Below, one piece after another: positions 17,304-59,318 of a DNA stretch of 64,000 bases. The stretch spans positions 124,001 through 188,000 of the forward strand of contig NZ_JASTZU010000034.1 in NCBI RefSeq assembly GCF_030282825.1. Direction: 5' to 3'. The notes below the pieces were generated by a model, which saw nothing but the letters and a program-made list of their open reading frames with translations, was not told where the DNA came from and did no database searches. Each line of letters begins with the position of its first letter. Within the stretch, counting starts at the first letter, position 1. This DNA comes from Aquibacillus rhizosphaerae (GTDB lineage Bacteria; Bacillota; Bacilli; Bacillales; Amphibacillaceae). The position numbers were made by a program, and so were the translations under genes.

Positions 17304-17700
17304 AAATGAATGTTTTGGTAATCGCTGCGTTATTTAGTAACGTAGAGGAAAGTCCATGCTCACACAAGCTGAGATTGCTTGTAGTGTTCGTGCTTGACGA
17401 AATCATAAGTCAAGGTAACCTATTGGTTAACGGCAGGGAAAATATCTAAGTCCTTTGGGATATGATATTACGACCTTGAAAGTGCCACAGTGACGGAGTC
17501 GGGTAGGAAACTGCTCGAATGGAACGAGGTAAACCCCACGAGTGAGCAACCCAAATATTGGTAGGGGCATCCTTGATTAGGGAATTCAACCGAAAAAGGG
17601 ACAAGCATTGTCTTGTAGATAGATGATTACTACTTGCGTACGAGGCTGACCACCGTTTGCAGTACTATAGTACAAAACATGGCTTATAAAACATTCATTT
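17304..17700 (+). ncRNA. rnpB: RNase P RNA, class B (Bacillus type)
   Basis: The catalytic RNA that trims tRNA 5' leaders. Helix P1 is formed by AAATGAATGTTTT (17304-17316) pairing perfectly with AAAACATTCATTT (17688-17700). Conserved core blocks are present in order: GGTAATCGCTGC, GAGGAAAGTCCATGCTC, GTGCCACAGTGACG, GGTAAACCCCACGAG, CCCAAAT.TTGGTAGGGG, GAATTCAAC, TAGATAGATGATT and ACAAAACATGGCTTA. The length (about 397 nt) and the location between gpsB and ypsC match B. subtilis. Confidence 0.97.
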
Positions 17701-52105: not shown

Positions 52106-52138
52106 GCAGCGTACAACTTAGTTGTACGCTGTTTTTAT
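52106..52138. terminator. Bidirectional terminator next to the first DoxX gene
   Basis: A perfect CAGCGTACAAC / GTTGTACGCTG stem with loop TTA, followed by TTTTT on the plus strand. It ends directly at the stop of the minus-strand DoxX gene. Confidence 0.85.
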
Positions 52139-52656
52139 TAAACTTCTGCAGTTTTTCTAACTTCTTTACTAATTTTTTTCGTGAACAATGCTTTCAGGTA
52201 AGGCATTGCATATCTGTCTAGACCTAATTTGCCTGCGTTCGCACCAGCAACAACGATGAAGAATCCAAGTAATATCATTTGACCGTTTGTGCTTACTGTT
52301 CCACTGAATAGGAAAGAGAAATTCATAACCATTCCCATTAGCACTGCGAAATTAGTAAATAGACCCAAGACTAATGCAATACCAACAAGAAGCTCGCCCC
52401 ACATAACTAGGAAGGTGAATAGACCCGCATTTGGTAAAGCAACATTTTCCAAGAAAGCTGCCCACCAACCCTGAACAGCAGGGTGTTCTCCAGTAGATTT
52501 TGCAATTGCTCCTTGTAAGAAACCACTTGCATCAAAGCCTTCACCAGTAATTTTTGCCCAACCACCTGTGATCCAAGAATAACCAAGATAAATCCGAATA
52601 ATTGCTAATACACCAGCTACGACATTATTTTTTCTTAAAAGTTCCAACATGTTCAT
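52138..52656 (-). CDS. DoxX-family membrane protein, paralogue 1
   Basis: A 172-residue integral membrane protein with four predicted helices: IRIYLGYSWITGGWAKI, an amphipathic insert FDASGFLQGAIAKSTGEHPAVQGWW, FLVMWGELLVGIALVLGLFTNF, and AVLMGMVMNFSFLFSGT. DoxX relatives in Bacilli (CatD, MhqP) are induced by quinone, thiol or oxidative stress and may pair with reductases. It is about 85% identical by eye to the protein at 58800-59318. GGAGTGAATGAAC precedes the ATG. The upstream region carries two copies of a dyad motif shared with the paralogue. Confidence 0.88.
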   Translation of the reverse strand: MNMLELLRKNNVVAGVLAIIRIYLGYSWITGGWAKITGEGFDASGFLQGAIAKSTGEHPAVQGWWAAFLENVALPNAGLFTFLVMWGELLVGIALVLGLFTNFAVLMGMVMNFSFLFSGTVSTNGQMILLGFFIVVAGANAGKLGLDRYAMPYLKALFTKKISKEVRKTAEV

Positions 52657-54734: not shown

Positions 54735-54980
54735 GTAGGAAGGATGACTATTGCGTCCTCTTTAGCTATAACGTTCATTTCATAGATTGGAGCAACAGTG
54801 GGGAAAATAACAACAGGGCAAGTCGAGTACATGCCAGCGCTGATTATGGTGATAGCAAGCTTAATCGCTTCACCATTAGGTGCGATGTTAGGTGAAAAAA
54901 TAAATACACATGTTTTGCAGATTGTGTTGGCATTGTTAATCGTAGCCACCGCAATAAAGATATGGTTAGATATTTTATAA
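54735..54980 (+). pseudogene. Remnant of a TauE/SafE-family anion exporter
   Basis: Only the C-terminal third of a sulfite/organosulfonate exporter-like protein is left. In one frame the segment reads MTIASSLAITFIS, a TAG stop (54783-54785), then [37 protein letters not shown] and a last helix to the stop at 54980. The typical N-terminal helices are absent because the terminator of the preceding gene lies immediately upstream. The truncation plus nonsense codon indicates a dead gene. It is followed after 42 bases by the HesB-like gene. Confidence 0.75.
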
Positions 54981-55022
54981 CTGTAATGTATTACTAAGGG
55001 AACAATTAAAGGAGGACTTCGA

Positions 55023-55310
55023 ATGGTTAAAATTACAAGGCCTGCATTAGAAAAGTTAAAAGAGAATGTGGAGCAAGCATCAATGGCAGGAGAAATGCTA
55101 AAAGTTCGCCTTACCATGGGAATTGGTTGAGGAGGACCAAAGATTAAACTGTCTCTGGAAGAGTCAGCTTCAGAAAATGATCAACTAATAGAACAAGACA
55201 AAATTGTATTTTTAATAAGTGAAAAAGATCAAATCTATTTTAACAATACAAAAATCGATTATACGAAAAACGTATTAGGTGATGGGAATTTCATTGTACT
55301 TCGTGTATGA
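55023..55310 (+). CDS. HesB/IscA-like protein with in-frame UGA at the conserved Cys position (possible selenoprotein or nonsense allele)
   Basis: A 95-codon frame beginning MVKITRPALEKLKENVEQA with AAAGGAGG seven bases before the ATG. It is open except for one TGA at codon 36 (55128-55130), in the context LRLTMGIG-UGA-GGPKIKLSLEES as read here (KVRLTMGIG before, GGPKIKLSLEES after). HesB-like family members carry Cys, and in some bacteria selenocysteine, exactly before GGP. The downstream part (DKIVFLISEKDQIYFNNTKIDY...GNFIVLRV) looks well kept. A weak stem (CCAAAGA / TCTCTGG) starts seven bases after the UGA, but its loop lacks the usual G-rich start, so a bacterial SECIS is not convincing. 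The adjacent TauE remnant favours decay. Both readings remain open. Confidence 0.6.
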
Positions 55311-58799: not shown

Positions 58800-59318
58800 T
58801 TAAACTTCTATCGGTGTTTTTGCTTCGGGACGTTCTTTTTTAACTAGTTTACTTTTTAGAAAAGGAATAGCGTATCTATCTAAACCAAATTTACCAGCAT
58901 TTGCTCCAGCAACAAGGACAAAGATACCTAATAGAATCATTTGACCGTTTGTACTTACTGTTCCACTGAATATGAATGAGAAGTTCATAACCATTCCCAT
59001 TAGTACTGCGAAGTTAGTGAAAAGCCCTAAAATTAAAGCAATCCCAATAAGTAGTTCTCCCCACATAACAAGGAAAGTGAAAAGACTGGCATTTGGTATA
59101 GCAACATTTTCTAAGAATACAGCCCACCAACCTTGAACTGCTGGATGTTCACCAGTAGATTTAGCAACGGCACCGTGTAAGAAACCAGTTGCATCAAAAC
59201 CACCACCTGTAATTTTCCCCCAACCACCTGTAATCCATGTATAGCCTAAATAAATACGAATAATTGCTAATAAACCAGCTACAACATTATTTTTTCTTAA
59301 AAGTTCCAACATTTTCAT
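58800..59318 (-). CDS. DoxX-family membrane protein, paralogue 2
   Basis: A 172-residue protein collinear with the DoxX protein at 52138-52656: the same four helices and the same FDATGFLHGAVAKSTGEHPAVQGWW insert, differing mainly at scattered positions and in the C-terminal 15 residues (LVKKERPEAKTPIEV versus FTKKISKEVRKTAEV). The control region upstream is also duplicated. The role is inferred to be thiol/quinone stress-related as for other DoxX proteins. It is separated from its twin by 6.1 kb of unrelated genes and faces the same way. Confidence 0.88.
   Translation of the reverse strand: MKMLELLRKNNVVAGLLAIIRIYLGYTWITGGWGKITGGGFDATGFLHGAVAKSTGEHPAVQGWWAVFLENVAIPNASLFTFLVMWGELLIGIALILGLFTNFAVLMGMVMNFSFIFSGTVSTNGQMILLGIFVLVAGANAGKFGLDRYAIPFLKSKLVKKERPEAKTPIEV

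Follow-up and report, generated by a model that had tools for sequence, protein, structure and literature searches.

The window analysed here is a stretch of 64,000 nt from Aquibacillus rhizosphaerae, and at its positions 55023-55310 (+ strand) lies a gene of 95 codons plus stop that is predicted to encode a HesB-like selenoprotein with selenocysteine (Sec) at codon 36. The frame opens with an ATG at 55023 and closes with a TGA at 55308-55310, and its sole internal stop is the TGA of codon 36 (55128-55130), in the context GIG-stop-GGP; neither an indel or frameshift nor a second internal stop is found across the 95 codons. A ribosome binding site, AAAGGAGG (55008-55015, + strand), can be read from the sequence 7 bases before the ATG, and scanning the + strand upstream of the gene for a promoter-like site found none. 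The PF01521 profile (Fe-S_biosyn, HesB/IscA superfamily) matches the window frame with 36.1 bits against a gathering cut-off of 26.3, and a search of the genome with the same profile recovers the gene at 29.4 bits, with the TGA noted within the match. Alignment with the Cys of AQ_1857 and HI1723 places the UGA at the conserved Cys position, giving a UxGP motif. Upstream on the same strand is a relic of tauE/safE (54741-54980), which retains the C-terminal third only and carries an in-frame TAG at 54783-54785; the remnant at 54741-54977 is 81% identical to TauE of a related genome (G001). An earlier note on this DNA had described a HesB-like frame open except for the TGA, a strong ribosome binding site and a dead TauE/SafE neighbour, and each of these points is borne out. 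Elsewhere in the window are a Class B RNase P RNA (17310-17691, + strand, 311 bits) and two similar 172-residue membrane proteins (52138-52656 and 58800-59318, both - strand), which lie about 6 kb apart, flank the hesB-like gene and are presumably DoxX-like.

The assembly (4.69 Mb, 63 contigs) encodes the components of Sec synthesis and insertion that the earlier note had proposed to look for. SelA is present at 494 bits and tRNA-Sec at 65.1 bits (gathering cut-off 47), together with SelD and a SelB that has both the beta-barrel and the winged-helix domains; selA, selB, selD and the tRNA-Sec gene sit together on one contig (C58). The same contig holds two further genes with in-frame UGAs. One is selD itself (L015:13931-14989, + strand), with the UGA in KGG-U-G, and SelD is likely a selenoprotein in its own right. 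The other is an Rdx/SelW-like gene between selA and selB (L015:9000-9302, - strand), with the UGA in CMQ-U (CxxU), and is a second likely selenoprotein. Downstream of each of these UGAs lies a hairpin with a 3-nt loop, GUU, that has G in first place. FdhA was considered as an additional selenoprotein and rejected: the two molybdopterin proteins of the genome have no TGA inside the matches, and none appears in the early part of the gene that follows its probable start.

The internal TGA recurs in related genomes. A close homologue occurs in 9 of 40 relatives' genomes, each with one TGA, and across the order 57 loci in 50 of 397 genomes match at E <= 6.1e-23, and every one of them again has a single TGA. 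Below these, at E >= 1e-21, come two copies that are damaged or incomplete (the second copy of G287, and G289); from E 3.6e-16 the matches listed, which reach down to E ~2e-12, are mostly stop-free paralogues, with two weak UGA-bearing loci of other subfamilies among them. When named genomes were scanned with the Sec position left free to be any residue, 133 relatives were recovered; in the best 80 of these, the loci kept, codon 36 is TGA in 80/80, and the closest are from Halalkalibacter okhensis (63%) and Aquibacillus koreensis (58%). No Cys form of the subfamily is seen among the 57 strong matches in 397 genomes or the best 80 of the 133 named loci.

The UGA is followed by a hairpin at 55149-55167 (+ strand), CTG-u-CTCT (GGA) AGAG-u-CAG, which is identified by conservation and folding and has its loop at 55157-55159. 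It begins 18 nt after the UGA, leaves 26 nt between UGA and loop, and has a stem of 4 bp, a U-U mismatch and 3 bp. When folding starts 12-18 nt beyond the UGA, this hairpin is the structure of lowest energy. The unconstrained fold of the region from the UGA to +60 is a different structure, misleading in that it includes UGA-proximal bases, and unconstrained folds give z-scores near zero. The hairpin had at first been judged weak and without an early G in its loop because the fold took in those UGA-proximal bases; the loop does start with G, and folding the stretch from +12 gives the conserved hairpin.

To follow the hairpin across relatives, 66 sequences were assembled (the window plus 65 fetched regions), of which 59 were used, aligned with no gaps. 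The seven left out are three decayed copies, two UGA loci of other subfamilies and two Cys-containing loci of another subfamily. The decayed copies, L114 (G027), L127 (the second copy of G287) and L128 (G289), have a broken frame or have lost the motif, and in these three the gene has been lost by decay rather than by a change to Cys. The two UGA loci that belong to other HesB-like subfamilies are L134 (G147) and L135 (G224), with the motifs RVS-U-LMKV and LAVG-U-GEP; L129 (G197) and L130 (G402) are Cys counterparts of the RVS-U-LMKV subfamily.

Among the 59 sequences, the 8-bp helix is paired in 97.0% of 472 cells, compared to 31.8-61.9% for slid versions of the helix. The covariation score is 0.392, where shuffled alignments give 0.204 (sd 0.014), and 34 cells are changed on both sides where shuffles give 8.1. 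Counted by pairs, however, a double change occurs in 4, a figure no higher than in shuffles, of which 107/500 reach it. Synonymous codons are frozen within the hairpin, with Leu +9 being CTG in 58/58 and Glu +11 being GAG in 59/59, whereas Gly +1, Gly +2, Glu +10 and neighbouring Leu residues use varying codons freely. Within the best 80 of the 133 named loci the loop is GGA in 80/80, all 8 pairs form in 55/80, and the stem has a bulged U in 17/80. This set and the 59 sequences are not independent, since they overlap (L141, for example, shares its contig with G001). The U-U mismatch at pair 4 is unique to the window, occurring in 1/64 of one set and in 0/80 of the other (best 80 of 133).

The bacterial SECIS model, as given in a 2026 review (PMC13188914), asks for a loop of 3-9 nt whose first two positions contain G, 16-37 nt from UGA to loop, an upper stem of 4-16 bp and a minimum free energy of <= -7.5 kcal/mol. 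The loop (GGA), spacing (26 nt) and stem (4 bp, U-U mismatch, 3 bp) of the window hairpin fall within these limits. Its energy is -5.5 kcal/mol alone and -6.6 to -6.9 when folded with the sequence from +12 onward, and imposing the pairing on the region from the UGA to +60 gives -7.6, so the values straddle the published limit; the hairpin of the relative G001 reaches -8.9 kcal/mol. Given its conservation, its compensatory changes and the freezing of synonymous codons within it, we take the hairpin, which is under RNA-level selection, to be a bacterial SECIS. Because relatives keep the same codon and the same hairpin after it, the UGA at 55128-55130 is very probably decoded as Sec. The genome's own SelA/SelB/SelD/tRNA-Sec system would decode it, with the hairpin at 55149-55167 directing insertion, and the product would be a 95-residue protein of the HesB/IscA fold. 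Expression of the gene in A. rhizosphaerae we infer.

What the protein might do is suggested by the neighbourhood of its relatives. Requiring at least three of five genes nearby (TauE, TusA, MBL-rhodanese, DsrE2 and TusA-rhodanese), a sulfur operon is found at 33/80 of the named loci kept (best 80 of 133), a lower bound because contig ends cut off neighbours; by the same rule it is undetected at the other 47/80, so the role is not tied to the operon everywhere. The order in G001, by Pfam, is DsrE2, rhodanese, rhodanese, TusA-rhodanese, MBL-rhodanese, TusA, TauE and the UGA-containing hesB. Other settings include a position just downstream of selD (G006 and G011) and, among the named loci, one beside glutaredoxin; further neighbours are what we take to be YneR-like HesB, capA, plsY and parE genes. 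The window genome keeps an intact sulfur operon on another contig (C18), in which tblastn finds no hesB. Because this intact operon without hesB sits elsewhere, the window hesB and the tauE relic look like the remainder of a second sulfur operon whose tauE decayed.

The AlphaFold model of the protein, built with 80 sequences, has a pLDDT of 90.8 and a pTM of 0.80, and its best Foldseek match in the PDB is IscA (1r94; E 1.3e-5, TM 0.81), indicating an IscA-type fold. Other structure matches are SufA (TM 0.77), HI1723, AQ_1857 and DsrR. In the model, Sec36 lies in the turn between strands 27-35 and 38-46. The window protein lacks Cys altogether, leaving Sec36 as its only Cys/Sec-type residue, and the consensus of the relatives' alignment (L198 left out) likewise has no Cys except the Sec column, which is printed as C.

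Because of the operon setting of the relatives, we tentatively propose that its most likely role may be that of a selenol-based acceptor or carrier of sulfane sulfur, which we hold with somewhat less than even confidence. The selenol of Sec36 would accept and carry sulfane sulfur, working with TusA, DsrE and rhodanese proteins; the MBL-rhodanese persulfide dioxygenase could be a further partner, and the carrier might be reset by glutaredoxin or a small thiol. If Sec is decoded, the protein could instead be a canonical A-type Fe-S carrier with Se in place of one S ligand, the link to the sulfur operon being incidental. The IscA/SufA fold of the model, PF01521 membership and the 47/80 loci (best 80 of 133) without a detected sulfur operon all speak for such a carrier. 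A-type carriers (IscA, SufA and ErpA) have three conserved Cys, including the C-terminal C-x-C ligands, and these ligands are missing from the Cys-free window protein, which would make a canonical Fe-S carrier role less likely. Where names were checked, moreover, relatives adjoin YneR-like, capA, plsY or parE genes or the sulfur operon, not suf or isc. On balance we regard the canonical carrier as unlikely, though not negligible.

A separate question is whether this particular copy is alive, since it could belong to a genuine selenoprotein family and still be dying, its operon lost, its SECIS stem mutated and its UGA poorly decoded or the gene silent. The earlier note leaned to decay on the strength of the dead tauE and of a hairpin that it took to be weak, and the U-U mismatch unique to the window, the want of a promoter-like site on the + strand in our scan and the decayed copies in relatives (the second copy of G287, G289 and G027) point the same way. 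The end branch of the window copy is also somewhat long, 0.35 against a median of 0.1 (3.5 times), and falls outside the branches flagged as long; the columns of this tree are too few for placing the window copy, and the operon-linked copies do not form one group in it. Against this, the ribosome binding site is strong, all 95 codons are free of frameshifts and second stops, and the genome has the full Sec machinery and two other UGA genes. A bulged U at the same place in the stem is common in relatives (17/80; best 80 of 133). After the UGA, moreover, the window protein keeps 15/16 of the columns conserved at >=90%, compared with 21/43 of the others (79 relatives, P = 0.0012), and constraint on the reading frame thus persists beyond the UGA. 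With the machinery present, the TGA and hairpin conserved and the post-UGA frame constrained, the lean to decay is unsupported and recent decay is improbable; we read the window copy as functional or very recently weakened.

Two other readings would remove Sec from the gene altogether. The UGA could be read by ordinary suppression or leaky readthrough, with the hairpin serving something else, an explanation best assessed by the co-occurrence of the gene with tRNA-Sec. In a control with 14 well-known genomes, the tRNA-Sec model was positive in 3 at a strict threshold and in 14/14 at a lax one, with 5 over the cut-off; since the lax threshold is positive in all controls, only matches over the cut-off were used. 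By this measure tRNA-Sec is present in 178/397 genomes of the order, and in 48/50 of those that carry the UGA gene. In the other two (G287 and G361) tRNA-Sec is undetected even at E 1e-8 and no convincing SelA is found. Among named genomes with the gene, tRNA-Sec was found under stricter filters in 46/49 searched (L171 left out), and was undetected in Bacillus sp. B1-b2, Lederbergia citri (probably the same genome as G361) and one MAG. The 178 genomes also temper the earlier suggestion that Sec decoding would be notable in a Bacillaceae genome, which holds only weakly.

Four genomes, L085 (G287), L097 (G361), L158 and L177, thus carry intact-looking UGA hesB genes without a detected tRNA-Sec, as orphaned recoded genes. 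The gene also occurs on large plasmids of Cytobacillus and Mesobacillus (NZ_CP015507.1:213778-214044 and three more). One of these plasmid copies, on pBO1 of Cytobacillus oceanisediminis 2691, lies in an operon arranged like those of L158 and L167, which suggests recent transfer; the host of pBO1 has tRNA-Sec. The orphaned genes are what favours readthrough, yet L158 and L167, counted as two of the four, fit recent arrival in a non-Sec host, the co-occurrence with tRNA-Sec is otherwise strong, and the position and loop of the hairpin are as the published SECIS model asks; readthrough is thus very improbable.

That a Cys-type HesB gene has merely suffered a TGY-to-TGA nonsense mutation, for which the sole point is that the codon is one base away from Cys codons, is the least probable reading of all and is ruled out by the conserved SECIS and the universal TGA in the loci examined (80/80 of the best 80 of 133 and 57/57 strong matches), with no Cys form of the subfamily seen. 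The earlier note had left Sec decoding and a nonsense allele as alternatives, and had reasoned that absence of selB or selC, or orthologues with TGT or TGC and no hairpin, would mark the latter; we find the opposite on each count, and of its two alternatives it is Sec decoding that is favoured.

Taken together, these observations make it very probable that the gene belongs to a functional subfamily of HesB-like selenoproteins, supplied with Sec by the cell's own machinery and perhaps acting as selenol-based sulfane-sulfur carriers. A bolder version, which we put forward as speculative and somewhat unlikely in its entirety, is that a Sec-obligate Bacillales branch of HesB/IscA has turned from an Fe-S carrier into a sulfane-sulfur relay between TusA, DsrE and rhodanese proteins and the persulfide dioxygenase, and has also spread by plasmid into non-Sec hosts. 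In such a relay the single selenol would hold sulfur as a selenosulfide between proteins of the yrk/cst operon, and the operon and UGA gene would travel together on plasmids, the gene becoming a dead or truncated passenger in hosts unable to make Sec. What looks like a pseudogene would then be a selenoprotein that many Bacillales genomes retain and that annotation seems to have overlooked. In aerobic spore-formers it would connect the use of selenium with the handling of sulfane sulfur, and it offers a clear test case for the action of a single selenol on the fold of an Fe-S carrier. The UGA genes whose genomes have no detected tRNA-Sec provide natural controls for the transfer of genes over a recoding barrier.

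Sec-containing HesB-like proteins as such are known: the table of a 2006 survey gives 11, and the available part of the same paper mentions three selenoproteins in Bacillales, family unstated (PMC1794560), while a 2016 table gives 90 in 86 organisms (PMC5029168). Our search of the open-access literature found no paper on Sec-HesB of Bacillaceae. For 4/4 plasmid copies the gene table has no entry at this locus; since that table omits pseudogenes, the original records may list one. The window protein scores below the cut-offs of both curated Sec-HesB families, 26.1 versus 66.35 bits for TIGR01911 (HesB_rel_seleno) and 38.7 versus 85 bits for NF038090 (IscA_HesB_Se), as do 8/8 subfamily relatives tested.

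The protein shares its predicted fold and PF01521 with the A-type carriers IscA, SufA and ErpA, but Sec replaces the first Cys, the C-terminal C-x-C is absent, and the protein falls below the cut-offs of TIGR02011, TIGR01997 and PRK13623. DsrR of Allochromatium vinosum (PDB 2k4z) has the same IscA-like fold (TM 0.80) and is encoded in a sulfur-oxidation operon, but lacks Sec and belongs to another pathway, reverse dsr. The sulfur operon corresponds to the yrkD-J (yrkD-yrkJ/cst) cluster of Bacillus licheniformis, by which sulfide and sulfane sulfur are sensed and oxidised. Genes of the types found there (CstR-like regulator, DsrE, TusA-rhodanese, MBL dioxygenase, TusA and TauE) come before Sec-HesB in 33/80 named loci (best 80 of 133) by the three-of-five rule, whereas HesB is nowhere mentioned in the available portion of that report (PMC9918477). 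Like the curated HesB-like selenoproteins, the protein belongs to this fold family, has Sec where Cys is conserved and carries the UxGP motif given for them in the review (PMC13188914). It differs in belonging to a subfamily with no Cys form seen, which has its own Bacillales SECIS and often lies in sulfane-sulfur operons.
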